Below, one piece after another: positions 2,346 to 19,335 of a DNA stretch of 19,665 nt. Every line of letters begins with the position of its first letter. Position 1 is the stretch's first letter. The DNA is from Candidatus Desantisbacteria bacterium CG1_02_49_89. GTDB lineage: Bacteria; Desantisbacteria; UBA1551. The stretch is from NCBI GenBank assembly GCA_001871075.1, contig MNUP01000129.1, positions 1-19,665 of the forward strand, read 5' to 3'. The notes under the pieces were generated by a model. It was not told the origin of the DNA. It did no database searches and saw only the letters and a program-made list of their open reading frames with translations. Made by a program: the position numbers and the translations under genes.

Positions 2346-2357
2346 TTTGTCCTTAAA

Positions 2358-2388
2358 TTTGAAATTTAAAATTTGCAATTTGAAATTG
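2358..2388. repeat. Heptamer array (TTTRMAA)
   Basis: Four consecutive 7-base units on the + strand: TTTGAAA, TTTAAAA, TTTGCAA, TTTGAAA, then TTG. The array fills most of the space between the OmpA-like gene and the terminator. It shares the 7-base period, but not the sequence, of other arrays in the window. Confidence 0.7.
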
Positions 2389-2400
2389 TGCGTGGTTGGA

Positions 2401-4056
2401 TTATTCTTCCCCGTCCATTATTATAACTTCCACCCTGCGGTTCTGCGCCCGCCCTATCTTGGTATTGTTTACGGCGATCGGGTCTTTGGAGCCGCAGCCC
2501 TTCACGGTTATGCGCTCTTTTGAAACGCCTTTGTTAACAAGGTACTTGACAACCGATTCTCCCCTTTTTACCGAAAGCTTCAGGTTGTACTTACTGGGGC
2601 CAGTGGAATCAGAATGCCCTTCAAGGGATATTTTGTTCTCAACGAATATTTTTATTATTCCGGCAAGTTTATCCAGTGTCCTGCGCGCCGCAGGGGTAAG
2701 ATCCGCGTTCCCGAACTCAAAAAATATGTCCGCGCCCGTCTGGATGGGAAGCCTTGTTAAAGTTTCACCCCCGACAAAAACCTTCTCAGCCCTGGCACTC
2801 TCTAACTTGGCTTTTACGAGCTCCTCTATCCTCGCGTCCATCTCTTTAATGACCGATTCGGCTTTCAGCCTTGCTTGCTTCTCCTTCTCCGCGGAGGATT
2901 CTGCTTCCTTTCTCTTCTTCTCGGATTCATCCTGCATCTTTCTCAGCTTTTCCCCATCTGTTGTCTTCTTGGCAAGCTCAGCCTCCAGCTGCGCTATGCG
3001 CTTATCAAGCTCCTTAACAAGAGCTTCCGCTTTCAGTCTTGCTTCCTTCTCCTTTTTTACTTCTCCGGTTAATTTTACCTTTTCTGCTTCAGCCTGCTTG
3101 GCCTTTAATATAGCTGTTTCCTGATCTTTACTTTTGGCAGCCGAAGGTGGCACTGGCGAAGATGGCACAACGGCAGTTGTAACCGTCTTCTTTTCAGCCT
3201 CAAGTTTCGCCGCAGCGTCAGCGGTCACTTTTTTCTTTGCCTCTGCTTCCGCAGCTGCTTTCTTTTCAGCTTCGAGTTTTGCAGCGGCATCCTGAGCAGC
3301 CTTAAGTTCAGCCGCTTTCTTGGCTTCGGCTGCTGCATCCTGTGCCGCCTTCAATTCGGCGGCTTTCTTTGCCTCTGCTGCTGCTCCAGCTTTCGCAGCG
3401 GTTTCCTGCGCCGCTTTAAGCTCAGCAGCTTTCTTTTCAGCCTCAAGTTTCACCGCAGCGTCAGCGGTCACTTTTTTCTTTGCCTCTGCTTCCGCAGCTG
3501 CTTTCTTTTCAACTTCGAGTTTTGCAGCGGCATCCTGAGCAGCCTTAAGTTCAGCCGCTTTCTTGGCTTCGGCTTCCGCATCTGCTTTCTTTTTTGTTTC
3601 ATCTGTCGGAGGTACAACACTAGCCGGGGTAGAAGCAGGAACTGCCTCCTGTACCTCTACCTCCTGGCCAGAACCTGTTATAGTAACTATGATCGAATTG
3701 CCGGTCTTGCCCGCATTGATCTGCAGGGAAGAAACGTCCGAAGTCTCGATAAGAATACGCCCTATCATAACAGGTCTTACTGAAGCCTGTGTTACTGTTA
3801 TATACTTTAAAATGTCCTTCCCAACGTTCGTGGAACTTTCCTTGACCTTCAGGCCTCGGACCTCTATTAATACGCCGGAAGGAATCGTTGAAACTGACTG
3901 CTTGAACTGGGCGTCTCCGCTCATGACTATCTCAACAGTCGCGTTTCCGTCTGACTCGTTTGTCTTGACTTCCTTAAGCTCTGCGCAGTCAGCGGTTGCT
4001 GAGAAGAATGCTGCAGTCAGTGCCAGTAGTATTAAATGGACTATTCGCTTTTTCAT
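2401..4056 (-). CDS. Periplasmic AMIN / coiled-coil / OmpA-like peptidoglycan-binding protein
   Basis: 551 aa. Residues 1-22 are a signal peptide (likely cleavage after A-T-A at 20-22; Cys24 does not sit in a good lipobox). An AMIN-type domain follows (about 26-130), then a long Ala/Lys/Glu-rich TolA-like segment (about 155-425) expected to form coiled coil. The C-terminal OmpA domain (about 431-551) carries EGHSDSTG (479-486), the LS..RGESVV.YL helix, and GRAQNRRVEV near 535-544. OmpA domains bind diaminopimelate peptidoglycan; AMIN domains localise envelope proteins. The protein probably links outer membrane or division machinery to the wall. There is no beta-barrel. No clear Shine-Dalgarno precedes the ATG in the AT-rich leader. 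The gene has its own promoter and terminator, separate from the dcw genes. Confidence 0.88.
   Translation of the reverse strand: MKKRIVHLILLALTAAFFSATADCAELKEVKTNESDGNATVEIVMSGDAQFKQSVSTIPSGVLIEVRGLKVKESSTNVGKDILKYITVTQASVRPVMIGRILIETSDVSSLQINAGKTGNSIIVTITGSGQEVEVQEAVPASTPASVVPPTDETKKKADAEAEAKKAAELKAAQDAAAKLEVEKKAAAEAEAKKKVTADAAVKLEAEKKAAELKAAQETAAKAGAAAEAKKAAELKAAQDAAAEAKKAAELKAAQDAAAKLEAEKKAAAEAEAKKKVTADAAAKLEAEKKTVTTAVVPSSPVPPSAAKSKDQETAILKAKQAEAEKVKLTGEVKKEKEARLKAEALVKELDKRIAQLEAELAKKTTDGEKLRKMQDESEKKRKEAESSAEKEKQARLKAESVIKEMDARIEELVKAKLESARAEKVFVGGETLTRLPIQTGADIFFEFGNADLTPAARRTLDKLAGIIKIFVENKISLEGHSDSTGPSKYNLKLSVKRGESVVKYLVNKGVSKERITVKGCGSKDPIAVNNTKIGRAQNRRVEVIIMDGEE
3188..3574 (-). repeat. 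Two near-identical 144-bp in-frame repeats within the coiled-coil region
   Basis: Bases 3188-3331 and 3431-3574 align with only two mismatches by eye. The offset is 243 bases (81 codons), so frame is kept. The spacer between them repeats shorter Ala/Lys units (KKAAELKAAQ). This indicates recent duplication within the coiled coil rather than slow divergence of protein repeats. Confidence 0.85.
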
Positions 4057-4109
4057 TTTGTTTATTGATATTAATTTATTAATTGATATTGAAAGTAATT
4101 TAGTATATT

Positions 4110-4137
4110 ATTATATATTAAATATAATAAAAGTCAA
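4110..4137 (-). promoter_or_regulatory. Sigma-70-type promoter for the OmpA-like gene
   Basis: On the minus strand TTGACT (4137-4132), a 16-base spacer, and TATAAT (4115-4110), followed by an AT-rich leader to the ATG at 4056. The -10 is a perfect consensus and the -35 matches 5 of 6. This is the clearest promoter in the window. Confidence 0.75.
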
Positions 4138-4206
4138 GGAAAAAGAGCTTTTTTCATAATTCTACGCATTTTTATGTTTCTAATCCTTAAACTATGAGCT
4201 ACCATA

Positions 4207-4273
4207 GGCCCATTGCCTTAGCTCTGGGCCGAAGGTCCCTGCGTTACCCGCCAATATTCGTGGCGGGGCAGGG
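4207..4273. other. Two strong hairpins after proC
   Basis: Hairpin one is GGCCCA (4207-4212) with TGGGCC (4225-4230). Hairpin two is CCCTGC (4237-4242) plus CCCGCCA (4247-4253), pairing with TGGCGGG (4261-4267) plus GCAGGG (4268-4273), broken by a 4-base bulge. No U-tract follows directly on either strand, so this is not a standard intrinsic terminator. It could be a folded 3' end protecting the dcw/proC transcript or a remnant of a small palindromic element. Confidence 0.5.
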
Positions 4274-4291
4274 ATATGCTATATACGGTTT

Positions 4292-5080
4292 TTAAGCCGT
4301 GGAAAGCTGCCCTGCCCTTTTCCACGCCGCCTTAACAGCCTTGTCCAATATGCTTCCCAGGCGGTATTTTTTTAAGACTTTAAGGGCTTCTGCCGTTGTA
4401 CCCTTCTTTGACGAAACCATATCGCGCAGTTCCGCAGGCTCTTTACCTGTTGTTTCCAGCAGCGCAACAGCACCCTTCGCGGTTTGGATCGCCAGATTCT
4501 TGCATGTTTGTTTGTCCAATCCAAGATCGCAGGCCGATCTGATCAGATGCCCGATCATCTCGAAGAAATAAGCCGGGCCGCTCCCGGAAAGCGCGGTCAC
4601 GGCATTAATATGTTTTTCAGCGACCGAAAAAACTTTCCCGGACCTGCGGAAAATTTCCTTCACTATAAACTCGTCTTTCCTGCTTGCACGCTTTCCCCTG
4701 CAGACCGCTGCCGCTCCCCGGCCGGCGATCAGGGCTATATTAGGCATAACCCTGACCACCCTTGCTTCACCTGCGGCTTTTTCAATAAAGCGGGTGCTTA
4801 TACCCGCAGCTATGGAAACAAACAGGTGCCTTGCCGTCACCGCGTCTTTTATGTTTACCAGCACTTCCTTCATCTCCTGCGGTTTTATCGCAAGTATCAC
4901 GATATTGCTTTTACTGACCAGTTCCAAGCTGTCTTTTGCAGGCGTTATCCCTGATCTTGAAGCGGCACGCTTTGCGGCAGGCCTTATGTCATAGCCCATG
5001 AGCGAAGATCCCTTCAGGCTTCTGCCGATAGCCATGCCCATTTTCCCCAGCCCTATTATACCGATCTTCCCCAGCTTCAT
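4292..5080 (-). CDS. proC: Pyrroline-5-carboxylate reductase
   Basis: 262 aa from the chosen start. It catalyses the last step of proline synthesis, NAD(P)H-dependent reduction of 1-pyrroline-5-carboxylate. The N-terminal Rossmann fold has GLGKMG (10-15); VMPN (111-114) and ALSGSGPAY (163-171) are family blocks. The C-terminal signature reads ELRDMVSSKKGTTAEAL, where most family members have SPGGTT, so KK replaces PG. I place the start at 5080 because AGGGG lies 5 bases upstream. A longer reading to 5134 would add 18 residues that are only translation of the TTATGAR repeat. The gene lies just below ftsZ, separated by that repeat, and is likely the last gene of the dcw transcript. Confidence 0.92.
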   Translation of the reverse strand: MKLGKIGIIGLGKMGMAIGRSLKGSSLMGYDIRPAAKRAASRSGITPAKDSLELVSKSNIVILAIKPQEMKEVLVNIKDAVTARHLFVSIAAGISTRFIEKAAGEARVVRVMPNIALIAGRGAAAVCRGKRASRKDEFIVKEIFRRSGKVFSVAEKHINAVTALSGSGPAYFFEMIGHLIRSACDLGLDKQTCKNLAIQTAKGAVALLETTGKEPAELRDMVSSKKGTTAEALKVLKKYRLGSILDKAVKAAWKRAGQLSTA

Positions 5081-5085
5081 GTTAA

Positions 5086-5090
5086 CCCCT
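5086..5090 (-). promoter_or_regulatory. Shine-Dalgarno that sets the proC start
   Basis: AGGGG on the minus strand, 5 bases before ATG at 5080. It lies immediately downstream of the repeat at 5095-5200 and rules out the longer start inside that repeat. Confidence 0.7.
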
Positions 5091-5094
5091 ATCG

Positions 5095-5200
5095 AATTAT
5101 GAATTATGAATGATGAGTTATGAATCAAAATCAAGGAGTTTTATTTAAATTCAATTCCATGTTGTTGACTCATAATTCATAACTCATAACTCATAATTAA
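5095..5200. repeat. TTATGAR inverted-repeat element, copy 1 (ftsZ-proC)
   Basis: The left arm (5095-5127) and right arm (5165-5200) are arrays of TTATGAA/TTATGAG that are reverse complements over about 33 bases with about 5 differences. They flank an AT-rich core containing AAGGAGTTTTATTTAAATT. The transcript could fold into a long hairpin ending just before the proC ribosome-binding site. Related copies lie at 9692-9803 and 13483-13580. Confidence 0.85.
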
Positions 5201-5214
5201 TTTCCTGTTTCTTT

Positions 5215-6360
5215 TTATATTATTTTGTTCCTAAGGAATGCCGGTATCTCCAGGTTGTTCACGGGATGCGGCCTTTTTTCCTCATCCAGCCTTGTCCCGA
5301 ATTTATCTATAAGGCTCCTGCGCTTGTATGCCGGTCTGTCATAATCCTGCGCGGCGGCATATGCCCCGGTGTCCACTTCCGCTCCCTGCTCCGTGTCCTG
5401 AGCGATCTTCTTTTCAAACCCGCTGGCAATTATCATGACCGTGGCCTCATCCCCCATGCTGTCATCCTCAACGGTCCCGAAAATGATATGCACGTCATCG
5501 CTTGCCATCTTCTGGATCAGGGTAGCTGCTTCCTGGACCTCGCCCATCTTAAGGTCCTTCCCCGAAATATTAAACAGGATCCTTTTCGCGCTATCTATGC
5601 AGCTTTCGTTCACAAGCGGGTTCGATATTGCCATTTTCACCGCGGCAACCGCCCTCCCCTCGCCGGACGCTGATCCCATTCCCATAAGCGTCTGCCCGGC
5701 GTCCCTCATTATGGTGCGCACGTCGGCAAAATCCAGGTTTATCAGGCCCGGGGTCGTGATCAGGTCAGAGATACCTTTGACCCCATGGTAAAGAACGTCA
5801 TCGGCCATCCTGAAGGCTTCGTTCAGTGAAGTCGCGTTATTGCACAGCCTCATCAGATTGTCGTTAGGGATCACTATCAGGGTGTCAACCTTGCCGTTGA
5901 GCTGCGCTATGCCCTGCTCTGCCTGCATGCGCCTTTTCCTGCCCTCGAACCCGAAGGGAAGCGTAACTATCGCAACAGTCAGTATTTCCATCTCCCTTGC
6001 AAGCTGGGCCACGACCGGGATCGCGCCTGTTCCTGTCCCGCCGCCCATCCCTGCCGTAAGGAAAACCATGTTTGAGCCGTCGATCGCCTGTTTTGCCAGG
6101 TCTATGTCCTCTTCAACGGCTTTCCTGCCCACATCCGGGTCTGAACCTGCGCCCAATCCCTCGGTAAGCTTGGACCCGATCTGTATCTTGTTGGTTGAAA
6201 GGGACGCTTTCAGGGCCTGGGCGTCAGTGTTTATGGCAATGAACTCGACGCCCCGGATCTCCGCCCTTATCATCCTGTCAACCGCGTTGCTGCCCCCGCC
6301 TCCTACCCCCACCACCTTCAGGTTCGCCCAGTAACCTCTTTCTTCCTCAAATCTGAACAT
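5215..6360 (-). CDS. ftsZ: Cell division GTPase FtsZ
   Basis: 381 aa, the tubulin-like GTPase that polymerises into the Z ring. Visible marks are the N-terminal VVGVGGGGSNAV nucleotide-binding loop (17-27), the tubulin signature GGGTGTGAIP (106-115), the T7-loop segment NLDFADVRTIM (208-218), and a C-terminal conserved peptide EIPAFLRNK (371-379) that docks FtsA and other partners. The start is set at 6360 by an excellent Shine-Dalgarno (AAGGAGG, 6-base gap). A longer reading to 6402 adds 14 residues from the GATTACG repeat and is rejected. It follows ftsA after 181 bases of repeat. Confidence 0.97.
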   Translation of the reverse strand: MFRFEEERGYWANLKVVGVGGGGSNAVDRMIRAEIRGVEFIAINTDAQALKASLSTNKIQIGSKLTEGLGAGSDPDVGRKAVEEDIDLAKQAIDGSNMVFLTAGMGGGTGTGAIPVVAQLAREMEILTVAIVTLPFGFEGRKRRMQAEQGIAQLNGKVDTLIVIPNDNLMRLCNNATSLNEAFRMADDVLYHGVKGISDLITTPGLINLDFADVRTIMRDAGQTLMGMGSASGEGRAVAAVKMAISNPLVNESCIDSAKRILFNISGKDLKMGEVQEAATLIQKMASDDVHIIFGTVEDDSMGDEATVMIIASGFEKKIAQDTEQGAEVDTGAYAAAQDYDRPAYKRRSLIDKFGTRLDEEKRPHPVNNLEIPAFLRNKII

Positions 6361-6366
6361 ATTCTC

Positions 6367-6373
6367 CCTCCTT
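6367..6373 (-). promoter_or_regulatory. Shine-Dalgarno that sets the ftsZ start
   Basis: AAGGAGG on the minus strand, 6 bases before ATG at 6360. It is near-perfect and supports high translation of FtsZ. It excludes the upstream in-frame ATG at 6402, which lies within repeat DNA. Confidence 0.85.
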
Positions 6374-6383
6374 TTTTGAAATT

Positions 6384-6534
6384 TGATTACGGTGATTTTC
6401 AACTGATGATTACGATGATTATTAAATAATGATTACGGTGATTATTAGAATAATGATCACAGCGATAAGTGCAACGATAGCAGTGATTTTAAAATTTATA
6501 ATCACTGTAATCATTCTTTAAATCACTGTAATCG
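6384..6534. repeat. GATTACR/GTGATTA repeat element, copy 1 (ftsA-ftsZ)
   Basis: Forward units GATTACGGTGATTWT occur near 6384 and 6432, with degenerate units GATCACA, GCGATAA, GTGCAAC, GATAGCA, GTGATTT after them. Reverse-complement units AATCACTGTAATC lie at about 6500 and 6521. The whole spacer is therefore an imperfect inverted repeat made of 7-base units. A related array lies at 7784-7910. Confidence 0.75.
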
Positions 6535-6541
6535 GTATTTA

Positions 6542-7762
6542 CTAAAAAAAATTCTGCCACCATTTCCTGAAGCCCTCGAAGACTCCGCCCTTGCCGAAAA
6601 TGGGAACGCCCCTCAGCTTTGACTGCATCAGAAGACCTGCTGCCACGGAAAAAGAAGGATCCGAAACCGCGGAACCTTCGGCTGCAGCTGTTATACCGCT
6701 TGCCTTCCCTATCCTCACGGGCATCCTCAGCATGTTCCCCGCGAGGTCAACAAGCCCGTCGGTATTCGCGACACCGCCTGTCAGCACAACACCGGCGGAA
6801 AGCATGTCCTCGTAACCAGTTTTCTTTATTTCCGCCCTTACCAGCTCGAATATCTCCTCGAGCCTTGCCTGTATGATCTCGCACAGCACCAGTTTTGAAA
6901 CCGTGTGGCCTCCCCTGCCGCCCAGGCCCGGAACATCCATCTCCCCCTCTTGTGCCATTGCCGATATCGCGCGCCCGTGTTCTTTTTTCAGTTTTTCCGC
7001 GACTTCGGGTGAACTGCGCACTCCCACGGCTATGTCTCCCGTAACCTGCTCGCCTCCCAGGCCCAGAACGCAGGTATGTATCACATAGCCTTTCACGAAA
7101 ACTGCTATGCTTGTCGTTCCGCCGCCCATATCAACCAGCGCGACCCCGCTGTTTATCTCGTCCTCGGCAAGCACTGCGAGGCTGGAAGCCAGAGGCCCCG
7201 GGACCGTGCTCCTGACCCTCAGGCCGGCCGAATTAATGCTTTTAATGATGTTCTGCATGGATGTTATCGCGCCCATGAAAAGCATGACCCTGATACCCAG
7301 GTTTTCCCCGATAAGGCCCAGAGGAGGTTCCTTCACGCCGTCGTGCCCGTCAACGATGTATTCCTGCGGCGATATGTAAAAGATCTCCTGGTCAAGCGGT
7401 ATGCTCAGCTCGCACGCCGCCTCTATAACGGCATTTATGTCCGCCTTCGTTATCTCTTTGTTTCCCCTGGAGATAGACCTGTGTCCGTCGCTGGGCATGC
7501 CCTTAAGGTAAATACCCCCGACGCTCGTAATGACATTTTTTATCCTCTGGCCGGACATCTTCTCTGCCTGCTCCACTGCGTCTTCGATCGCTCCAACGGT
7601 ATTATCAAGATGAATAATTACTCCCTTGCGCAGGCCCCCGGACGCCGGCCTTGAACCGTATCCCAGCACTTCCACCTCGCCTTCTTCGCTTACAGCGGAA
7701 ACAACCGCGCAGATCTTCGTCGTGCCGATATCAAGACTGCTCACGATCTCATCTTTAGCCAA
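6542..7762 (-). CDS. ftsA: Cell division protein FtsA
   Basis: 406 aa actin-family ATPase that tethers FtsZ to the membrane and recruits later divisome proteins. Phosphate 1 motif SLDIGTTK is at 9-16, phosphate 2 motif LVDMGGGTTSIAVF at 209-222, and the adenosine motif VVLTGGVANTDG at 325-336. The C-terminus (about 394-406, FEGFRKWWQNFF) is an amphipathic helix of the membrane-targeting type. The start codon is TTG at 7762, supported by AAGGAGG five bases upstream; no ATG fits the family N-terminus. It lies between ftsQ and ftsZ, separated from both by GATTACG-type repeats rather than by tight junctions. Confidence 0.95.
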   Translation of the reverse strand: MAKDEIVSSLDIGTTKICAVVSAVSEEGEVEVLGYGSRPASGGLRKGVIIHLDNTVGAIEDAVEQAEKMSGQRIKNVITSVGGIYLKGMPSDGHRSISRGNKEITKADINAVIEAACELSIPLDQEIFYISPQEYIVDGHDGVKEPPLGLIGENLGIRVMLFMGAITSMQNIIKSINSAGLRVRSTVPGPLASSLAVLAEDEINSGVALVDMGGGTTSIAVFVKGYVIHTCVLGLGGEQVTGDIAVGVRSSPEVAEKLKKEHGRAISAMAQEGEMDVPGLGGRGGHTVSKLVLCEIIQARLEEIFELVRAEIKKTGYEDMLSAGVVLTGGVANTDGLVDLAGNMLRMPVRIGKASGITAAAEGSAVSDPSFSVAAGLLMQSKLRGVPIFGKGGVFEGFRKWWQNFF

Positions 7763-7767
7763 ATTCC

Positions 7768-7774
7768 CCTCCTT
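7768..7774 (-). promoter_or_regulatory. Shine-Dalgarno supporting the TTG start of ftsA
   Basis: AAGGAGG on the minus strand, 5 bases before TTG at 7762-7760. The TTTTTT-AAGGAGG leader matches that of ftsZ (both read AAAAAAGGAGG), suggesting a shared strong initiation signal in the two genes, with the weaker TTG codon lowering FtsA output relative to FtsZ. Confidence 0.75.
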
Positions 7775-7783
7775 TTTTAAGAT

Positions 7784-7910
7784 GACGATTACAGTGATTA
7801 TTTAAAAATGATTACGGTGATTATTAACTACTGACGATCTTTGCTTCGCAACATTCTTTGTGGGTCACGTCGATAAACGACGAATTACGGTGATTATACA
7901 ATGATTCTTT
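7784..7910. repeat. GATTACR/GTGATTA array, copy 2, with an embedded shared module (ftsQ-ftsA)
   Basis: Direct units ATTACRGTGATTAT occur near 7789, 7809 and 7883. Between the second and third lies a 26-base module (7840-7865) found again, inverted and exact, at 15144-15169. The third unit after the module suggests that the module or a larger element inserted into an older GATTACG array. Confidence 0.75.
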
Positions 7911-7939
7911 ACTTCTCAGCATGCTTTATATTATTAAAA

Positions 7940-8716: not shown

Positions 8717-9682
8717 TTATCTGCTCCTTGCCATCATGACGATCCTTGCCAGTAGTTCCTCGAACCCGATACCGGACGCTTTTGCCGATTCGGGGAAAAG
8801 CGAGAGTTCGGTCATGCCCGGAATCGTGTTAACTTCCAGGACATATATTCCGCTGCTGCCCATCCTGAAATCAACCCTTGAATAATCCCTGCAGCCCAGC
8901 GCCCTGTGGGCATGGAGGGCTAACTCCTGCACTTTCGCATAATCTCTTTCCCCGAGCGGCGCGGGAATAATATGCTCGCAGAATCCGGGGGTGTATTTTG
9001 CCTTAAAATCGTAGAAAGCCCTCCTGGGCTTCAGCTCTATGACCGCAAGCGCCTTGTTGCCCAGTATTCCCACAGAAAGCTCTTTCCCGCTTATATATTT
9101 TTCAACGATCACCTCGTTGCCGTATCTGAACGCGCTGCGCAAAATTGCTGCAAGTTCATTTTTGTTCCCGGCGATGCCTACCCCTATCGCCGACCCTTCC
9201 GAACTCGGTTTTACTACTACCGGAAAAGATAGTGAAACCGTGGACTGCCCGCCCTGCGCAAAGGCAGGGCGAGGTCTCGCCCCGATATTAATCGGGGCGG
9301 ATGGACCGTGGACTGTGGACTTATGCAGCACCTGGTACCGGGGAGTGGGGATGCCTTCGGAAACAAAGATCTTTTTTGCGAAAATTTTATCCATCGCAAG
9401 CGCTGAAGCAAGCACTCCCGAACCTGTATAAGGAATACCCATTCCCTCCAGGACCGCCTGTATGCCTCCGTCTTCACCGAACTTGCCGTGTATGCACAGG
9501 AATGCGACATCGAATTTTTTCCTGAAAAGCTCCTGGAAAGATCTTTTCCCTTTCAGGTCCAGGCAGGAAACCCTGAAACCCGCTTTTTTCAGCCCTTTCG
9601 CCACGGAAGATCCGCTCTTCAGCGAAATCGCCCTTTCACTCGACCATCCGCCCGAAAGCACCAGCACCCTTGTCTTCTTCAT
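8717..9682 (-). CDS. ddl: D-alanine--D-alanine ligase with an in-frame repeat insertion
   Basis: 321 aa ATP-grasp enzyme making D-Ala-D-Ala for MurF. The N-terminus has LSGGWSSER (9-17) for the family's GG.S.E; HGKFGEDG (65-72), the ATP-grasp strand FPVVVKPSSEGSAIGV (153-168) and EVNTIPGMTELS near the C-terminus are conserved. Residues 122-150 (nt 9233-9319) do not look like protein of this family: they translate GTGGACY heptamers and two perfect hairpins inserted between TPRYQVLHK and LSFPVVVKP, a loop before the ATP-grasp lid. Frame is kept and the core motifs are intact, so the enzyme is likely active. A Shine-Dalgarno AGGAG with 4-base gap precedes ATG, directly after the copy-2 TTATGAR element. 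Confidence 0.93.
   Translation of the reverse strand: MKKTRVLVLSGGWSSERAISLKSGSSVAKGLKKAGFRVSCLDLKGKRSFQELFRKKFDVAFLCIHGKFGEDGGIQAVLEGMGIPYTGSGVLASALAMDKIFAKKIFVSEGIPTPRYQVLHKSTVHGPSAPINIGARPRPAFAQGGQSTVSLSFPVVVKPSSEGSAIGVGIAGNKNELAAILRSAFRYGNEVIVEKYISGKELSVGILGNKALAVIELKPRRAFYDFKAKYTPGFCEHIIPAPLGERDYAKVQELALHAHRALGCRDYSRVDFRMGSSGIYVLEVNTIPGMTELSLFPESAKASGIGFEELLARIVMMARSR
9240..9321. repeat. Intragenic repeat in ddl: GTGGACY heptamers around two hairpins
   Basis: On the + strand GTGGACT (9240-9246); then CGCCCTGC/GCAGGGCG (9250-9257 with 9264-9271); then CGCCCCGAT/ATCGGGGCG (9278-9286 with 9291-9299); then ATGGACC, GTGGACT, GTGGACT (9301-9321). Both stems are perfect. The block lies in frame within ddl. 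Confidence 0.85.
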
Positions 9683-9691
9683 ACAACTCCT

Positions 9692-9803
9692 AATTATGAA
9701 TTATAAATTATGAATTATGAATCAACAACAAGGAGTTTTATCTTAATTCAGGGCAAAAGCCCTGATTCCTTCACTCATAATTCATAAATCATAATTCATA
9801 ATT
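9692..9803. repeat. TTATGAR inverted-repeat element, copy 2 (murB-ddl)
   Basis: The left arm 9692-9725 and right arm 9771-9803 are TTATGAA-type arrays that pair with each other. The core shares AAGGAGTTTTAT with copy 1 and the TTCACTCAT end with the reverse complement of copy 3. The core also carries a perfect 7-bp hairpin, TCAGGGC-AAAA-GCCCTGA (9748-9765). The element starts right after the murB stop and ends at the ddl ribosome-binding site. Confidence 0.85.
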
Positions 9804-9807
9804 GAAT

Positions 9808-10725: not shown

Positions 10726-10778
10726 TTTTCACCAAATAATAAAAATTACCACGGAGGCACTGTGATCATAGCTTTTAC

Positions 10779-10846
10779 TTGACACTTGATACTTGACTCT
10801 TGATACTGAAACTCTGACACGCTGATACGCTGACACGTTGACACGC
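10779..10846. repeat. TTGAYAC heptamers passing into TGAYACGC octamers (murC-murB)
   Basis: + strand units: TTGACAC, TTGATAC, TTGACTC, TTGATAC (7 bases each), TGAAACTC, then TGACACGC, TGATACGC, TGACACGT, TGACACGC (8 bases each). The array ends one base from the murC stop codon. The period changes from 7 to 8 while the unit core TGAYAC is kept. Confidence 0.8.
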
Positions 10847-10847
10847 C

Positions 10848-12224: not shown

Positions 12225-12349
12225 GGATCTCCACGGATTTTTACTCTGCAAACTCTGTAAACTTTATAAACTTTGTAAACTGCATCAGCAACCACGGATT
12301 AACACGGATTCCCACGGATTTAACTTTTAACTTTTAACTTTAAACTCTG
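12221..12349. repeat. Stacked repeat arrays filling the murG slot (ftsW-murC)
   Basis: Four blocks lie end to end on the + strand. Two CCACGGATYT decamers (12221-12240) come first. Next are nonamers of the GTAAACTTT type (about 12248-12283), then three decamers ACCACGGATT, AACACGGATT, CCCACGGATT (12291-12320). Last are heptamers AACTTTT, AACTTTT, AACTTTA, AACTCTG (12322-12349). The first block contains the murC start and the last encodes the FtsW C-terminus and stop. Confidence 0.85.
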
Positions 12350-13456: not shown

Positions 13457-13482
13457 TTTAACCCCGATTTACCGCTGAAATC

Positions 13483-13580
13483 AATTATGAGTTATGAATT
13501 ATGAGTTATGAGTGAAGGAATTTTATTTAAATGAAAATCCATGCCGTTGATTCATAATTCATCATTCATAATTCATAATT
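13483..13580. repeat. TTATGAR inverted-repeat element, copy 3 (murD-ftsW)
   Basis: The left arm (about 13483-13512) consists of TTATGAG/TTATGAA units; the right arm (about 13549-13580) is their complement. The core contains AAGGAATTTTATTTAAAT. Its TGAGTGAAGGAAT edge matches the reverse complement of copy 2, so copies sit in different orientations. It lies 27 bases before the ftsW start. Confidence 0.85.
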
Positions 13581-13589
13581 AGAAATTTT

Positions 13590-14966
13590 TTATAATTTAC
13601 TCACTTCGTCCTTGAAGATCCTGCCCCGCTCTTTGTAATCCCTGAACATATCGAAACTGCTGCATCCGGGAGACAGCACCACCTCATCCCCTGGCTCTGC
13701 TGATTCGGCCGCGGCCCTTACCGCTTCCCCCATGTCCGCTGCCTTCATTATAATGCCTCGCAGGGAGTTGCTGTAACCCAGGAGCATCTTCTCTATGGCG
13801 TCTTTCGCCTCTCCGATAAGGATTATTTTCTTTGCTTTCTCTTCCGCGGGTTTTCCGAGTATCCCGAAATCCCCGCCCTTATACCTGCCCCCTGCTATCA
13901 ATACAAGCGATTTTTTTCCCGGCGTCCCGAGGCTTTCAAGCGCTTTGAGCACGGCGTCGACCGTTGTTCCCTTCGAATCGTTTATGTACCTGACGCCTTT
14001 TTTATCCCCTGCCGGCTCCATCCTGTGTTCAAGCCCTGTGAATTCCCTGAGCGCTTTGGAGGCGGCGTCAGCATGTATCCCAAAAACCATTGCCATCGCG
14101 GTTGCCGCAAGCGCGTTCTCAAGGTTATGCTGGCCTATAAGCTTTATCTGCGAGATCTCGCAGACCGTCTGCTCCGTGCCGATCCTGCTTATTATCTTTC
14201 CGCCCCTTACGAACACGCCTGTCTGCGGTTCGCTCTTTCTTGAAAAAACAACCTTTCTTGCCTTTATGCCCTCTTCGACCAGTGCCGCGGTGGCGGGGCA
14301 GTCCCCGTTGATCACCGCGAAGTCGTCCGCATGCTGGTTCTCGAATATCCTCGCTTTCGCCTTAATGTATTCTTCCATGCCCGGATACCTGTCAAGATGG
14401 TTCGCGTTTATGTTCAGCAAAGCCGCGATCTTCGGCCTGAAATCTTTGATGGTCTCGAGCTGGAAACTGCTTATCTCCGCCACAACAGCTTCAGGCTGCG
14501 CCCCGGTGTATACCGGTCCCGCGAATTTGGTCAGCGGCTCACCGATATTACCCCCGACTATCACTTTCTTGCCGCCTGCCTTAAGCATTTCTCCTGTCAG
14601 GACCGTGGTTGTTGTCTTGCCGTTTGAACCTGTTATCGCTATTATAGGGCTTGATATGAACAAGAAGGCAAGCTCGATCTCTCCTATTACCGGGATCCCT
14701 TTTGCCGCTACTTCCTTCAGTATCGGTATACCGGAAGGTATTCCCGGGCTAATGACCACGGCGTCAGAATCAAGGACCTGGCGGCTGTGCCCCCCGAACT
14801 CTGTCCTGATACCCGCGGGGAGCCCGGCCGGCAGCTTCCCCAGTTCCTCCTTCTTCTTCGTATCGCTCAAAAGCACGTCTGCACCGGCCTTTACCAGAAG
14901 AACGGAAGAATAGATGCCGCTTATCCCCATGCCCAGAACGCTTATTTTTTTCCCTTTAAGATCCAT
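13590..14966 (-). CDS. murD: UDP-N-acetylmuramoylalanine--D-glutamate ligase
   Basis: 458 aa Mur ligase adding D-Glu to UDP-MurNAc-L-Ala in the cytoplasm. The Rossmann-like N-terminus has ISVLGMGISG (8-17). The ATP P-loop GSNGKTTTT is at 113-121. LNINANHLDRYPGMEEYIKAK gives the metal/HLD motif and the carbamylated-lysine region. INDSKGTTVDA is the MurD DSKaTN-type motif, and LSPGCSSFDMF is the C-terminal signature. Length is normal. No good Shine-Dalgarno is visible before the ATG, which follows a run of A. Unlike a compact dcw operon, 258 bases of repeat separate it from mraY upstream. Confidence 0.95.
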   Translation of the reverse strand: MDLKGKKISVLGMGISGIYSSVLLVKAGADVLLSDTKKKEELGKLPAGLPAGIRTEFGGHSRQVLDSDAVVISPGIPSGIPILKEVAAKGIPVIGEIELAFLFISSPIIAITGSNGKTTTTVLTGEMLKAGGKKVIVGGNIGEPLTKFAGPVYTGAQPEAVVAEISSFQLETIKDFRPKIAALLNINANHLDRYPGMEEYIKAKARIFENQHADDFAVINGDCPATAALVEEGIKARKVVFSRKSEPQTGVFVRGGKIISRIGTEQTVCEISQIKLIGQHNLENALAATAMAMVFGIHADAASKALREFTGLEHRMEPAGDKKGVRYINDSKGTTVDAVLKALESLGTPGKKSLVLIAGGRYKGGDFGILGKPAEEKAKKIILIGEAKDAIEKMLLGYSNSLRGIIMKAADMGEAVRAAAESAEPGDEVVLSPGCSSFDMFRDYKERGRIFKDEVSKL

Positions 14967-15000
14967 TTTTTTAGAAATCAGATTAAGATTAAGAACTTTT

Positions 15001-15195
15001 TAACCACACGATTACACAGATTTCCACGAGATGACGGTTTGACCGTCATTGCGAGCGGAGCGAAGCAATCTTGTATTGGATTGCTTCGTCATTTCATTCC
15101 TCGCAATGACATTTCTTGTGGAATTCGTCAGTCTTTCGATATTACCCACAAAGAATGTTGCGAAGCAAACAATCGCGTGAAATCTCGTGGTTATA
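15001..15195. repeat. Nested repeat element between mraY and murD
   Basis: The outer parts are degenerate decamers of the ACCACGGATT type: AACCACACGATTACACAG at 15002-15019, and the complement of ACCACGAGATTTCACGCGAT at about 15173-15192. Inside lie TGACGGT-TTG-ACCGTCA (15032-15048), the CATTGCGAG palindrome (15045-15110), and the 26-base module at 15144-15169 shared with 7840-7865. No open reading frame in it looks real. Confidence 0.8.
15045..15110. repeat. CATTGCGAG-type palindromic element
   Basis: GTCATTGCGAG (15045-15055) pairs with CTCGCAATGAC (15100-15110), and GAAGCAATC (15062-15070) pairs with GATTGCTTC (15079-15087). Palindromes with this same GTCATTGCGAG end are, as I recall, dispersed in intergenic DNA of unrelated bacteria including Rickettsia. 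It looks like a non-autonomous mobile palindrome. Confidence 0.85.
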
Positions 15196-15224
15196 TGTTT
15201 TGCATTAATCTCAATCTGCCTTTT

Positions 15225-16313
15225 TTATCTTAGCTTGAGCGTTGAAAAAGTCACAAGCGCAAGAATTATGTTAATGATCCAGAACCTGACAACGACCTTC
15301 GGTTCAGGCCAGCCCTTCAGTTCAAAATGGTGGTGCAGGGGTGTCATCTTAAAGATCCTTTTCCCGGTAAGCTTGAAACAGGTAACCTGCAGTATGACGG
15401 ATACTATCTCCACGAGGAATATTCCCCCGACGATCAGCAGGAGTATCTCCTTGCGGACAAGAAGCGCGACAAGCCCTATAGCTCCGCCGAGAGCCAGGGC
15501 TCCGGTGTCACCCATAAAAACCTGCGACGGGTATGAATTGAACCACAGGAACCCAAGGCCCGCGCCCATCATTGCTGAAAGGTAAACGGTCAGCTCGCTG
15601 CTCTGCTGCACGAAAGGTATCAGCAGGTACTGGCTGAACTTGAAATTTCCGGTGAAGTAGGCGAACAGCCCCATGGTCGCGGCTGTTATCACAACCCCTC
15701 CTATAGCCAGCCCGTCCAGCCCGTCTGTCAGGTTGACCGCGTTCGACGAGAACATTATCACCAGCGCGGCGAACGGGACATACAGGATCCCGAGCCTTAT
15801 GAGCGCGTCCTTAAAAAACGGCACTGTAACGTCGGAAAAGCCGGCTGTTTCCGGCGACATGTAAAGGAACACGCCTACCGCAGTGCCTATAAAAGCCTGG
15901 GCCGTGAGTTTCTGCCACGGCTTCAGACCCCCGGGCTTCCCTTTCTTAAGCTTCAGGTAATCGTCAAGGAAACCTACAAGGCCCAGGAACACCGTGCATA
16001 TGAGAGCCGCGTGTATGAAGGAATTGTCAAGCCTCGCCCACAGGGCGGTTGAGATAACGAGTGTCAAAACTATAAGCAATCCGCCCATTGTCGGCGTGCC
16101 CACCTTTGCCTTGTGCTGCTGCTCGAAGAGCGGGAACTCCCTGACCGTGTCACCCACCTTGGCCTGCTGCAGCCTTTTAATTATCCAGGGCCCCAGCGTT
16201 ATTGTGAGCACGAGGCTTAGCAGGGCCGCGCCGGCTGACCTGAACGTTATATACCGCAGAACGTTGAACCCGAAAAAGTGATCACGAAGAGGGAACAACA
16301 GATGATAAAACAT
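15225..16313 (-). CDS. mraY: Phospho-N-acetylmuramoyl-pentapeptide transferase
   Basis: 362 aa, about ten membrane segments. It transfers phospho-MurNAc-pentapeptide to undecaprenyl phosphate, giving lipid I. Signature residues are DDYLKLKKG (117-125), SNAVNLTDGLDGLAIG (190-205), FMGDTGALALGG (267-278) and the TPLHHHFE block (324-331). Length is typical. The ATG at 16313 has GGAGG upstream and lies inside murF: the two genes overlap by 32 bases, so translation is probably coupled. This is the only normal tight overlap in the upper half of the cluster apart from ddl-ftsQ. Confidence 0.97.
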   Translation of the reverse strand: MFYHLLFPLRDHFFGFNVLRYITFRSAGAALLSLVLTITLGPWIIKRLQQAKVGDTVREFPLFEQQHKAKVGTPTMGGLLIVLTLVISTALWARLDNSFIHAALICTVFLGLVGFLDDYLKLKKGKPGGLKPWQKLTAQAFIGTAVGVFLYMSPETAGFSDVTVPFFKDALIRLGILYVPFAALVIMFSSNAVNLTDGLDGLAIGGVVITAATMGLFAYFTGNFKFSQYLLIPFVQQSSELTVYLSAMMGAGLGFLWFNSYPSQVFMGDTGALALGGAIGLVALLVRKEILLLIVGGIFLVEIVSVILQVTCFKLTGKRIFKMTPLHHHFELKGWPEPKVVVRFWIINIILALVTFSTLKLR

Positions 16314-17733
16314 CCAGCACCTCCTCCATTTTAGCTTTGCGGGAACCCTTTACAAGGAGCATATCGCCCTTTCTGGCCTCCCGCTTCAGTTCTTTTATAA
16401 GTTCTTTTTTATCGGTAAAAGCGCGGGCGCAGCCGCCTTTCAGGGCGAATTTTTTCGCGGTTACGCGCGCGAGGTTTCCCAGCGTGAAGAGGATATCCAC
16501 CCCCGCCTTTTTAATATCTTCTGAGATCTTCCTGTGCGCCGGGACCGCGAGCCTGCCAAGTTCCAGCATGTCCCCGAGTACAAGGATCTTTCTTTTCCCG
16601 GGGATCTCCCCGAGGAAGGAAACCGCCTGGCACACGGATGATGGGTTGGCGTTATACGCGTCGTTTATAATTGTGATGCCGCCGGATTTTTTTATCTCCA
16701 TCCTCATAGGCGGGCTTTCAGCGCTCTCGATTCCTTTTTTAATAAGTTCCGCCCGTATCCCCATGGCATATCCGGCTGCCGCGCCTGCGAGCGCGTTGTA
16801 TACGTTAAAAAGCCCCGGCATAGTAAGCTTTGTTTCAAGCGTTTTTGAACCCAGGCTCAGCCTGAAAGAACTTCTGCATCCCGATATTTTTATGTCAGAA
16901 GCGCAAACGTTCCTCCTGTTATTGAAGGCGTAGTTGCCTGAAATCCCGTATGTAACCAGCCTGACCGAGGGGGGTATGTTCCCGGACTTGATCCACCTGC
17001 GGGCCATAGCATCGTCAGCGTTAAGGACTGCCGTTCCCCCTGCACGCAATCCCTTTATAAGGGAGAACTTCTCCCTTGCGACGCCGCCTACGCTTTTCAG
17101 CCCTTCAATGTGGCTCATACCGATATTCGTAACCACTCCTGCCGTTGGTCTGGCTATCTCAACCAGCCTCCTGATCTCACCGTAAGCGTTCGTGCCCAAC
17201 TCAAGAACTGCGGCTTTATGCCTGCGGCCCAGCCCGAACAGCGTGAGCGGCACCCCGACCTCATTGTTGAAGTTCCCCTTATTTTTCAGGACGTGCCTGC
17301 GCCCGAATTTCATGCCCAGTATGCTCCAGATTATTTCCTTTGTGGTTGTTTTGCCGTTGCTGCCTGTCACGCATATCACCGGGATCCTTCGCCTCATCCT
17401 GCAGAAATTCGCTATGTCCTGCATCGCCCTCAAAGTATCCCCCACCGCAATAACTACCGGTTGAACGTTGAAAGTTGAACGTTGAAAGTTTTTAAACTTA
17501 CGACTTACGACGCACGACGCACGACGCACGAGCATTCCTGCCGCTCCTCCCGCCACTGCTTTGGCAAGGAAATCATGGGCGTCGAAATTTTTGCCTTTCA
17601 GCGCGATGAACAGGTCTCCTTTTTTAACACTGCGTGTATCGGTAGAAATGTTTTTAAAAGAAGCGCGTATGTCCCCGCTGATAAGCCTTCCTTTTGTCGC
17701 CTTTAATATTTCTCTAACGGTCATCTTTTCCAT
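16282..17733 (-). CDS. murF: UDP-MurNAc-tripeptide--D-Ala-D-Ala ligase with an in-frame repeat insertion
   Basis: 483 aa. It adds D-Ala-D-Ala to complete the pentapeptide precursor. The N-terminal DTRSVKKGDLFIALKG (32-47), the P-loop GSNGKTTTK (124-132), NKGNFNNEVGVPLTL (151-165) and NDAYNANPSS are classic. Residues 70-91 (nt 17461-17526) are translated repeat DNA between AAGMLV and PVVIAVGDTLRAM, a site at the end of the N-terminal domain where family members go nearly straight from strand to strand. The frame and all motifs survive. The start may be ATG 17733 or 17724 (residue 4); no strong Shine-Dalgarno decides it, the nearest AAGG being in the murE-murF heptamer array. Confidence 0.94.
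   Translation of the reverse strand: MEKMTVREILKATKGRLISGDIRASFKNISTDTRSVKKGDLFIALKGKNFDAHDFLAKAVAGGAAGMLVRRASCVVSRKFKNFQRSTFNVQPVVIAVGDTLRAMQDIANFCRMRRRIPVICVTGSNGKTTTKEIIWSILGMKFGRRHVLKNKGNFNNEVGVPLTLFGLGRRHKAAVLELGTNAYGEIRRLVEIARPTAGVVTNIGMSHIEGLKSVGGVAREKFSLIKGLRAGGTAVLNADDAMARRWIKSGNIPPSVRLVTYGISGNYAFNNRRNVCASDIKISGCRSSFRLSLGSKTLETKLTMPGLFNVYNALAGAAAGYAMGIRAELIKKGIESAESPPMRMEIKKSGGITIINDAYNANPSSVCQAVSFLGEIPGKRKILVLGDMLELGRLAVPAHRKISEDIKKAGVDILFTLGNLARVTAKKFALKGGCARAFTDKKELIKELKREARKGDMLLVKGSRKAKMEEVLDVLSSVVPSS
17460..17530. repeat. Intragenic repeat in murF: two heptamer arrays back to back
   Basis: + strand: GTTGAAC, GTTGAAA, GTTGAAC, GTTGAAA (17460-17487), a short GTTTTTAA junction, then ACTTACG twice and ACGCACG three times (17496-17530). 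The two arrays are unrelated in sequence but share the 7-base unit. Together they add about 22 codons without stop codons or frameshift. Confidence 0.88.
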
Positions 17734-17738
17734 GTTTT

Positions 17739-17771
17739 AACTTTCAACCTTTAACTTTTAACCTTTAACTG
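17739..17771. repeat. GTTAAAR heptamer array at the murE-murF junction
   Basis: + strand units AACTTTC, AACCTTT, AACTTTT, AACCTTT, AACTG. Read on the minus strand they supply the TAA stop of murE (17767-17765) and the only AAGG near the murF start. The array is the same family as the one ending ftsW (12322-12349). Confidence 0.85.
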
Positions 17772-19273
17772 TTTTTAAGTATCTCCCTGACTACTTCCCT
17801 GTCGTCAAAATGTATGGTTTTATCCGCGAGTATCTGGTAATCCTCATGCCCTTTTCCGGCGATCACAACAAGGTCTCCCTGCCCCGCTGCCGAGCAGGCT
17901 TTTTCGATCGCCTCCCTGCGGTCAACGAAAGTGTAATATTCCCCCATGGGCTTTACTTTCTGTATCCCGGACTCTGTGTCCAGTATGATGCGCAGGGGAT
18001 CTTCCCTTCTCGGATTATCCGAAGTGAGTATGCACAAGTCGCTGCATGAAGCCGCTATCTCGCCCATGATAGGCCGCTTGCTCCTGTCCCTTTCGCCCCC
18101 GCACCCGAAAACCACTATGAGCTTCTTCTTTGCTAGCTCCCTTGCAGCTATGAGCAGGTCTTTAAGCGCCTCCGGCGTATGGGCGTAATCCACTATCACG
18201 TAAAAACCCCTGCCCTTTATTTTTTCAAACCTTCCGGGAACGTTTGCGACAGACTCTATGCCTTCCTTTATTTCCTCTATCGGGATCCCTTCGGCGATCG
18301 CGCTTGCCGCGGCAGCCAGCGCGTTGTATATGTTGAACTTGCCGGTCATTTTCAGGTTCACGTCTGTCTTGCCCGCTGGTGTTACCATCTCGAACGATAT
18401 TTTCTCCATGTCCATGTGCAGGGGGACAGCGCTGACCTGGGCTGCCGGGGAAAAACCGTATGTTATTTTTCTTGCCTTTGTAGAATCCATGATCTCCCTG
18501 GCGCAGGCGTCATCAAGGTTCACGACCGCGATCTTGTCCTTCTTGGCCCCGGGCCTGTCAAGGCCCTGGAACAGCTTCATTTTCGCCTTAAGATATTCTT
18601 CCTTGGTCTGGTGAAAATCCAGGTGGTCAAGGCCAAGGTTGGTGAATATTGCCTGGTCAAACTCTATGGCATCCACGCGGTGCAGCATAAGTGAGTGGGA
18701 AGAAACCTCTATAACAGCGTATTCCTCTCCCGCGTCCGCTGAATGCCTGAACATGAACTCAATGTCCGACGCTTCGGGTGTTGTCCTGCCTGCGGGGAAA
18801 GAATCCCCGCCCGCCTCGTAAACTATGGTACCTATAAGCCCGGCTTTTTTGCCGTGCCTTTCAAGTATCGACCGGAGTATGTAGGTCGTTGTGGTCTTGC
18901 CGTTCGTGCCTGTAACGCCTATAACGCGAAGGCTTCTGTCGGGATGATCATAGAATTCCGCCGCGAGCTTTCCCAGGCTTACCCTCGTATCACCGACCTT
19001 GACAAGCACGCTGCCCGCGGGAACGTCAGGCTTCCCGTTGCTTATGACCGCGCCCGCGCCTTTTTTAAGCGCGTCCGGCACGAATTCGTTCCCGTCCATA
19101 TTGAATCCGGGCATGCACGCAAAAATAAAATCTTTTTTCACCTTTCTTGAATCGTATGTTATTCCTTCCACAGGGATGTCGTTTATCATGAGATCATCCG
19201 GGCTTATCTGCGCGCCGCCCCTGAATAGCTGGGCTTTGTCCAGAACTCCGATCAGCTGCGATAATTTTTTCAT
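17765..19273 (-). CDS. murE: UDP-MurNAc-L-Ala-D-Glu--meso-diaminopimelate ligase
   Basis: 502 aa Mur ligase adding the third stem residue. The P-loop GTNGKTTTT is at 122-130; Lys231 in YLKAKMKLF is the likely carbamylated lysine; DYAHTPEAL is at 362-370. DNPRREDP at 419-426 is the substrate motif of the meso-diaminopimelate type (lysine enzymes differ here), which supports a Gram-negative-type wall. The ATG has GGAAAGGGG directly upstream. The stop codon falls within a heptamer array. It is the most upstream gene visible; ftsI, ftsL or mraW, if linked, would lie beyond 19665. Confidence 0.96.
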   Translation of the reverse strand: MKKLSQLIGVLDKAQLFRGGAQISPDDLMINDIPVEGITYDSRKVKKDFIFACMPGFNMDGNEFVPDALKKGAGAVISNGKPDVPAGSVLVKVGDTRVSLGKLAAEFYDHPDRSLRVIGVTGTNGKTTTTYILRSILERHGKKAGLIGTIVYEAGGDSFPAGRTTPEASDIEFMFRHSADAGEEYAVIEVSSHSLMLHRVDAIEFDQAIFTNLGLDHLDFHQTKEEYLKAKMKLFQGLDRPGAKKDKIAVVNLDDACAREIMDSTKARKITYGFSPAAQVSAVPLHMDMEKISFEMVTPAGKTDVNLKMTGKFNIYNALAAAASAIAEGIPIEEIKEGIESVANVPGRFEKIKGRGFYVIVDYAHTPEALKDLLIAARELAKKKLIVVFGCGGERDRSKRPIMGEIAASCSDLCILTSDNPRREDPLRIILDTESGIQKVKPMGEYYTFVDRREAIEKACSAAGQGDLVVIAGKGHEDYQILADKTIHFDDREVVREILKNS

Positions 19274-19293
19274 CCCCTTTCCTTTCCCTTTTC

Positions 19294-19335
19294 AGATTAT
19301 ATTGTAGATTGCAGATTTAAGATTGTAGATTGAAA
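19294..19335. repeat. ATTGYAG heptamer array upstream of murE
   Basis: + strand units AGATTAT, ATTGTAG, ATTGCAG, ATTTAAG, ATTGTAG, ATTGAAA. Six consecutive 7-base units, about 20 bases before the murE start. Confidence 0.8.

Follow-up and report, generated by a model that had tools for sequence, protein, structure and literature searches.

Period-7 arrays of a Desantisbacteria dcw/mur cluster and a suggested common origin with the inverted ends of S23p genes

Heptamer repeats of unexplained origin have been reported from cyanobacteria, Xanthomonas, Geobacter and other bacteria, and the class was noticed decades ago. The dcw/mur cluster of Candidatus Desantisbacteria bacterium CG1_02_49_89 (the source genome, labelled G000) raises the question of what produces arrays of one format and many unrelated units. 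The window, that is, the whole stretch of 19,665 nt analysed here (contig MNUP01000129.1, forward strand), coincides with this cluster.

Arrays of the window and of its genome

The array sites of the window are as follows.

2355..2387: solitary period-7 array (AAATTTG) between a 687-aa ORF and an OmpA-domain ORF
5095..5198: complete IVP-less palindromic TTATGAR element (31-nt array 5095-5125, 42-nt core, inverted 31-nt array 5168-5198), overlapping the N-terminal extension of a proC-like ORF; RNA fold -33.5 kcal/mol, z -6.3
6384..6541: inverted GATTACR/GTGATTA repeats with a higher-order period of 21-23 and no clean heptamer array, between ftsA and ftsZ
9246..9321: GTGGACY array (9302-9321) with a GC-rich REP-like hairpin alongside, within the ddl ORF, at a position where the E. 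coli-type Ddl is ~12 residues shorter
9692..9805: complete TTATGAR palindromic element at the ddl/murB junction, with the GC hairpin CAGGGCAAAAGCCCTG in its core; RNA fold -38.1 kcal/mol, z -8.0
10777..10846: period-7 array (ACTTGAC) adjoining a period-8 array (CTGACACG), murB/murC junction
12243..12346: composite of three arrays with periods 9 (12243-12281), 10 (12293-12320) and 7 (12319-12346), murC/ftsW junction
13483..13580: complete TTATGAR palindromic element, ftsW/murD junction; RNA fold -36.9 kcal/mol, z -7.7
17460..17531: two dissimilar arrays inside murF, GTT-type (17460-17490, 31 nt) and ACT/ACG-type (17496-17531), encoding most of the 15-residue excess over E. coli MurF
17735..17770: period-7 array (TTTTAAC/TTTCAACC), murE/murF junction
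19301..19332: degenerate period-7 array (ATTGTAG) upstream of murE

Tandem Repeats Finder placed period-7 arrays at 2355-2387, 5094-5125, 5168-5196, 9302-9321, 9692-9722, 9775-9803, 10777-10820, 12319-12346, 13485-13513, 13550-13580, 17460-17490, 17496-17531, 17735-17770 and 19301-19332. The strong arrays of a lag scan comprised eight at period 7 and one each at periods 8, 9 and 23, along with four period-14 rows that mostly represent the period-7 arrays again; the remaining periods yielded none, and 40 Markov-3 null sequences were empty. The three TTATGAR pairs, with arms of 31 nt, end in inverted arrays that each comprise about five 3-nt boxes at a period in the range 7-9, while the other arrays of the window are unpaired or paired with dissimilar units. 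Visual inspection of 19 TTATGAR elements, the exact ends of which are ambiguous, revealed no evident target-site duplication.

In 339 kb of the genome, a sample partly selected for TTATGAR-bearing contigs and therefore enriched for this unit, 127 arrays were counted at period 7, 37 at period 8, 19 at period 9 and 17 at period 10, with 0-2 at each of periods 3-6 and 11-12 and none at periods 7-10 in the Markov null. The modal period-7 array is 31 nt long, equal to four units plus 3 nt and hence to five 3-nt boxes, and the modal period-9 array spans 39-40 nt, a tail of expanded arrays also being present. There are 46 canonical 7-mer units, nine of which differ pairwise by at least three letters. 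Some arrays are paired in inverted orientation, with a palindromic core between them; a same-unit inverted partner lies within 200 nt of only 37 of 200 G000 arrays.

The first-pass annotation had described at least nine unrelated heptamers, tandemly repeated 3-6 times at most gene junctions. The arrays are real, and the period histogram is peaked at 7, not spread evenly over 5-12. Period 7 is the peak of a true range of 7-10 and not a constant: the period-8 array (10806-10846) and the period-9 and period-10 arrays of the murC/ftsW composite had been overlooked, and the supposed GATTACR/GTGATTA heptamer was reported at periods 21-23 and weakly at 9. The TTATGAR arrays, described as head-to-tail, in fact form inverted pairs that build three palindromic elements of ~100 nt. 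Repetition is confirmed, but with a nearly fixed copy number, and most arrays do lie at junctions, apart from the two sites within murF and ddl.

Arrays beside S23p (IVP) genes

S23p (IVP), a small protein associated with the intervening sequences of rRNA, belongs to a family that has, to our knowledge, no known function. Its domain, PF05635 (23S rRNA IVP/S23p, a relative of Avd), has 11 matches in G000, and none in the window elements, which consist only of array pairs or arms. Most of the G000 IVP genes have an array on one side and an inverted array of the same unit on the other, the unit differing from paralogue to paralogue, and a unit related to the solitary AAATTTG array of the window (AAATTTC/AAATTGT) flanks one of them (G000:C6:5460-5756). 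Arrays were found on 13 of 16 IVP gene sides, as opposed to 0 of 18 for Y1 transposase genes; ordinary ORF sides in this genome carry an array in 37 % of cases, reflecting its high array density. At 80 IVP loci from organisms other than G000, a 7/14-nt array was present on 58 % of the 150-nt sides of IVP genes and on 5.5 % of those of other ORFs of the same loci (Fisher p 2e-58).

IVP genes in many phyla are flanked by such arrays, usually on both sides, inverted and with equal period. Among 126 loci across phyla, 118 were flanked by at least one array (10 when shuffled) and 85 by arrays left and right (0 when shuffled), and the period was equal left and right in 80 of these 85. The sharing of 4-mers between the upstream and the reverse-complemented downstream array amounted to 0.53 within a locus and 0.25 between loci. 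In a set of 40 loci from five genomes chosen by IVP score, independently of arrays, nearly all IVPs are array-flanked, and the units again differ between paralogues. Inverted heptamers also occur on the flanks of IVP genes on Nostoc, Calothrix and Anabaena plasmids. Period-7 arrays were detected in nine of 20 Planctomycetota genomes with at least four IVPs and in none of 20 sampled without IVP. A same-order relative that lacks IVP has one such array in 159 kb, compared with 116 in 319 kb.

With one mismatch per box allowed, the box count peaks at five (88 of 195 arrays), while for exact boxes beside IVP genes the commonest run is four. The boxes are conserved and the spacers degenerate, as in ACTnnnn x5, and expanded arrays occur beside some IVP genes (24 boxes in L109; long arrays in L075 and L080). 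A period fixed for each IVP clade was considered and rejected: across the full set of loci, 16 changes were counted against 22.8 in shuffled data (0/1000), but the 40-locus set gave 15 against 16.7; in that set the IVP tree does not predict the period, which is thus labile. When units of solitary arrays in the sample were matched to IVP units of the same genome, permuted units performed equally well (48 versus 24.5, 40/300). None of the IVP genes detected has TTATGAR ends, so no particular IVP can be assigned to the solitary families.

The Flavobacterium site L110, compared in 30 genomes, varies in occupancy: nine carry the IVP element and 21 lack it, but none of the 17 IVP-less sites inspected was a clean, scarless empty site. 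Another hairpin is clear in L316 and was recognized by inspection in L319, L330, L314 and CACAAAGATTCGC-type sites; L322 holds an unrelated gene and L328 has no visible array.

Origin of the arrays

The heptamer repeats of the genome are built like the mirror-image ends flanking S23p genes in many phyla, and a common origin of the two is therefore suggested. The arrays probably serve as recognition sequences at the ends of a family of small IVP elements; pairs or arms that stand alone would be IVP-less derivatives. Such an element would consist of an array, an IVP gene and an inverted array, each array typically presenting four to five copies of a 3-nt box, one every 7, 8 or 9 nt, to which an IVP oligomer would bind. 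One box per IVP subunit is plausible, as the two closest solved relatives, 2gsc and 2rld, both matched by the IVP model together with the Avd of diversity-generating retroelements, have five chains each. The three TTATGAR elements of the window and the lone arms would have spread in trans or been left by gene loss. Movement, if IVP elements are indeed mobile, would most likely proceed as a hairpin (DNA or RNA) with no obligatory reverse transcriptase. A speculative and fairly unlikely proposal is that a pentameric S23p/IVP recognizes an array of five boxes, with one 3-nt box for each subunit, and mobilizes the palindromic element bounded by such arrays without a transposase or reverse transcriptase of known family, each paralogue having its own unit and period.

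It is possible, if somewhat doubtful, that the arrays are the ends of IVP elements whose spread depends on another enzyme (a reverse transcriptase, a Y1 transposase or a host nuclease), the role of IVP being only that of an autoregulator or chaperone that binds RNA. The S23p fold is that of Avd, the reverse transcriptase partner of diversity-generating retroelements (PMC10053308), and G000 has ten Y1_Tnp matches and one RVT match. However, RVT_1 was undetected in 16 of 35 IVP-bearing genomes, including ones with 18 and 21 IVPs, although some assemblies are incomplete and may conceal genes; a reverse transcriptase was rejected as an obligatory partner. The single RVT match of G000 lies on another contig; judged by the reverse transcriptase, the arrangement of a diversity-generating retroelement, in which this enzyme accompanies Avd together with template and variable repeats, is not present. 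A RAYT-like Y1 transposase was likewise rejected, its genes in G000, the one genome considered, lacking arrays within 150 nt.

The binding of a global regulator or nucleoid protein, or a function as RNA hairpins such as terminators, with IVP genes nearby by chance, is improbable. For Geobacter metallireducens, IHF/HU has reportedly been put forward as the binding protein of paired octamer/heptamer sites. The arrays are mostly intergenic, with strong hairpins, and at L110 (9900-10420) several Flavobacterium species retain hairpins differing in unit and period, as if structure were selected. Nevertheless, a single regulator would hardly be expected to use many unrelated units at three different periods in each genome, arrays occur within the murF and ddl ORFs, and the specific association with PF05635 across phyla is left unexplained.

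Slippage during replication, for which a preferred step of ~7 nt has been invoked to explain heptanucleotide repeats of bacteria (cited in PMC4679880 and PMC4692102), does act on IVP-flanking arrays, as the expanded L109, L075 and L080 arrays indicate, and in many genomes heptanucleotides form the most frequent class of long simple repeats (PMC4679880); as the origin of the arrays, slippage is nonetheless improbable, given a modal length fixed at four units plus 3 nt instead of an open-ended copy number, inverted partners sharing period and unit, the position beside one gene family, the lack of period-7 arrays in the sampled IVP-free Planctomycetota, and conserved boxes between degenerate spacers.

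The first-pass annotation had proposed a shared mechanism with a ~7-nt step and set aside the spread of an element. A shared cause behind the unrelated units is supported, with a period of 7-10 and a mechanism that is still presumed. Of its three options, a modular binding protein fits best: in many phyla, PF05635 genes are flanked by arrays of one common format, and each structure entry of a solved relative contains five chains. Slippage by itself and an obligatory reverse transcriptase fit less well. The spread of elements, in many families of the same build, is now the favoured reading. If the arrays are the ends of S23p elements, the origin of the repeats and the function of S23p would merge into one bench-testable question, Avd-like proteins would have a role beyond diversity-generating retroelements, and a rule would be available for identifying a large share of the non-coding repeats in uncultured bacteria.

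Comparison with known systems

REP/REPIN sequences with their RAYT (Y1) resemble the present elements as small, dispersed palindromes with a single-gene partner, but REP hairpins are not tandem arrays, and the Y1 genes of G000 have none adjacent. The TAACTGA repeats of Beggiatoaceae are heptamer direct repeats, mostly intergenic (PMC4679880); they differ in having a single unit that is almost never inverted (one inverted case). The cyanobacterial STRR of Calothrix and Nostoc are also heptamer arrays, likened here by this format to the inverted heptamers beside plasmid IVP genes. The heptanucleotide arrays of Xanthomonas (GGGAATC) and Nostoc mostly comprise four units and are mostly intergenic, with 70-75 convergent inverted pairs per Xanthomonas genome (PMC4692102); they resemble the arrays described here in these respects, but are treated there as quadruplex formers, with S23p unmentioned in the sections considered. 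The solved S23p 2gsc originates from X. campestris. Beyond the Coxiella intervening sequence (IVS), no paper linking heptamer arrays with S23p was found in the literature searched, which excluded most subscription papers.

In the 23S rRNA IVS of Coxiella burnetii, as in IVP elements, an S23p/PF05635 ORF lies inside terminal inverted repeats (28-bp inverted ends) with tandem heptamers directly upstream (PMC4990558). These IVS differ in being located in 23S rRNA genes and excised by RNase III, whereas the window elements lie in the dcw/mur cluster and an Rfam scan of six IVP loci (five of Flavobacteriia/Cytophagia type and L085) returned no rRNA. Unlike the 23S rRNA IVS, the IVP elements described here display many units and periods per genome.

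Heptamer arrays and their genomic setting

The first-pass annotation had described many period-7 arrays with unrelated units at gene junctions and had suggested a common mechanism with a step of about 7 nt. The arrays are real, being common both in the window and across 339 kb of the genome, with a Markov-4 null giving 0 at periods 7–10. In these 339 kb, 127 arrays of period 7, 37 of period 8, 19 of period 9 and 17 of period 10 were counted, with 0–2 arrays at each of periods 3–6, 11 and 12, although the sample was picked partly via matches to the TTATGARTTATGARTTATGA pattern and absolute densities are thus inflated. Genome-wide, this pattern has 121 matches and its reversed control 0. The units comprise 46 canonical 7-mers, nine of which differ mutually by at least three letters.

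A same-unit inverted partner lies within 200 nt of 37 of 200 arrays in this genome. The TTATGAR family forms inverted pairs about a short core (19 pairs in the sample). These fold as long hairpins, the three window pairs reaching z −6 to −8. The window additionally holds lone arms and composites that mix different periods.

The window sits on contig 59 of the 150 that make up a 2.48-Mb genome and comprises a cell-wall/division cluster (murE, murF, mraY, murD, ftsW, murC, murB, ddl, ftsQ, ftsA, ftsZ and a proC-like gene), named by Pfam for most genes, by comparison with solved chains for ddl and from sequence only for ftsQ and proC. Arrays occur inside genes at two sites: murF has about 15 extra residues at the array position relative to E. 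coli MurF, and ddl about 12 near its array relative to E. coli-type Ddl. The following features were also observed.

Window 7763-7939: second GTGATTA/TAATCACCGTAATCA-type copy, at the ftsQ/ftsA junction
Window 9246-9300 and 9741-9762: REP-like GC-rich hairpins within heptamer elements, one inside the ddl ORF
Window 14967-15224: long imperfect palindrome (minus-strand fold −88 kcal/mol) that includes a VIASGAKQS-type reading frame and looks like a further dispersed element
Scanned loci L020 (12086-12252) and L026 (11972-12133 and 16208-16372): 8-mer arrays of GAGCAATA/TTCTATTG type near tRNA genes

Arrays flanking IVP genes

PF05635 (23S rRNA intervening-sequence protein, S23p, 'four helix bundle protein'; hereafter IVP) has 11 matches in this genome and was absent from 14 control genomes. 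Most of these genes carry same-unit inverted arrays on both sides, the unit varying from gene to gene; the exceptions are locus L031, where the arrays look direct, and loci L032 and L035, where they are weak or one-sided, while L036 is truncated by the contig end. In this genome, arrays were found on 13 of 16 sides of IVP genes, compared with 0 of 18 sides of Y1 transposase genes and 37 % of the sides of ordinary ORFs.

Among 80 IVP loci from other genomes (Chloroflexota, Bacteroidota, Planctomycetota, Elusimicrobia, Atribacteria, Patescibacteria and others), a 7/14-nt array was present on 90 of 156 IVP sides versus 94 of the 1712 sides belonging to other ORFs of these loci. In 40 further loci, selected from five genomes by IVP score alone, nearly all IVP genes have flanking arrays, with a period of 7, 8 or 9, and boxes (the conserved three letters of the unit) differ among the paralogues of one genome. 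When 126 loci were pooled, 118 had an array on at least one side (10 when shuffled) and 85 on both (0 when shuffled). The period matches between the two sides in 80 of these 85, and the upstream array resembles the reverse-complemented downstream array of its own locus twice as well as those of other loci. Flanks of the same kind accompany IVP genes on Nostoc, Calothrix and Anabaena plasmids; on two cyanobacterial plasmids (L342 and L349) an IVP gene is located between cas6 and cas4.

In sampled planctomycetotal DNA, period-7 arrays were detected in 9 of 20 genomes with at least four IVP genes and in 0 of 20 without (Mann–Whitney p 0.0009). An IVP-less relative of the window's genome has one period-7 array in 159 kb.

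Turnover of IVP elements

The simplest account is that the arrays would be the ends of S23p/IVP elements, with lone pairs and arms as derivatives of such elements. Within this genome, units of solitary arrays match those of its IVP genes no better than chance; TTATGAR ends were not seen at any IVP gene, and array period is labile along the IVP protein tree.

Flavobacterium IVP elements that are 80–83 % identical occupy unrelated surroundings. A position shared by 30 genomes (L110 9900-10420) lies upstream of a conserved gene; 9 of the 30 have an IVP element there and the others lack one. Of 17 IVP-less versions inspected, L316 plainly holds an array hairpin and several others, judged by eye, hold hairpins with a different unit or period; L322 holds an unrelated gene, and no array was seen in L328. 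This comparison shows turnover rather than a clean insertion event; possibly, a conserved hairpin changed sequence in place. As regards enzymes that might move IVP elements, RVT_1 was undetected in 16 of 35 IVP-bearing genomes, some of them incomplete, and Y1_Tnp has 10 matches in the window's genome, the one genome searched for it.

The IVP protein and known heptamer systems

The AlphaFold2 structure predicted for an Elusimicrobia IVP (mean pLDDT 94.8) matches 2gsc (X. campestris XCC0516), 2rld, Bordetella phage Avd (4dwl) and the Avd of DGR ribonucleoproteins (8ub7, 8ube); one NCBIfam scan also returned an Avd match below threshold. The two solved relatives, 2gsc and 2rld, contain five chains each, the former having been described as a pentamer of four-helix bundles (PMC4990558). 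The modal array lengths, 31 nt at period 7 and 39–40 nt at period 9, equal four units plus three letters, i.e. five three-letter boxes. With one mismatch per box permitted, the mode is five boxes (88 of 195 arrays); with exact boxes only, it is four beside IVP genes. The numerical correspondence of about five boxes to five subunits is suggestive only.

In the literature searched, no paper was found that ties together, with S23p, the reports on heptanucleotide excess, Geobacter, Xanthomonas and Coxiella. Slippage has been proposed as the source of the excess (PMC4679880). Heptamer/octamer sites of Geobacter metallireducens include several paired on opposite strands (PMC2700814), and Xanthomonas heptamer arrays mostly have four units and often form inverted pairs (PMC4692102). 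In the Coxiella 23S intervening sequence, heptamers reportedly lie upstream of its S23p ORF (PMC4990558).
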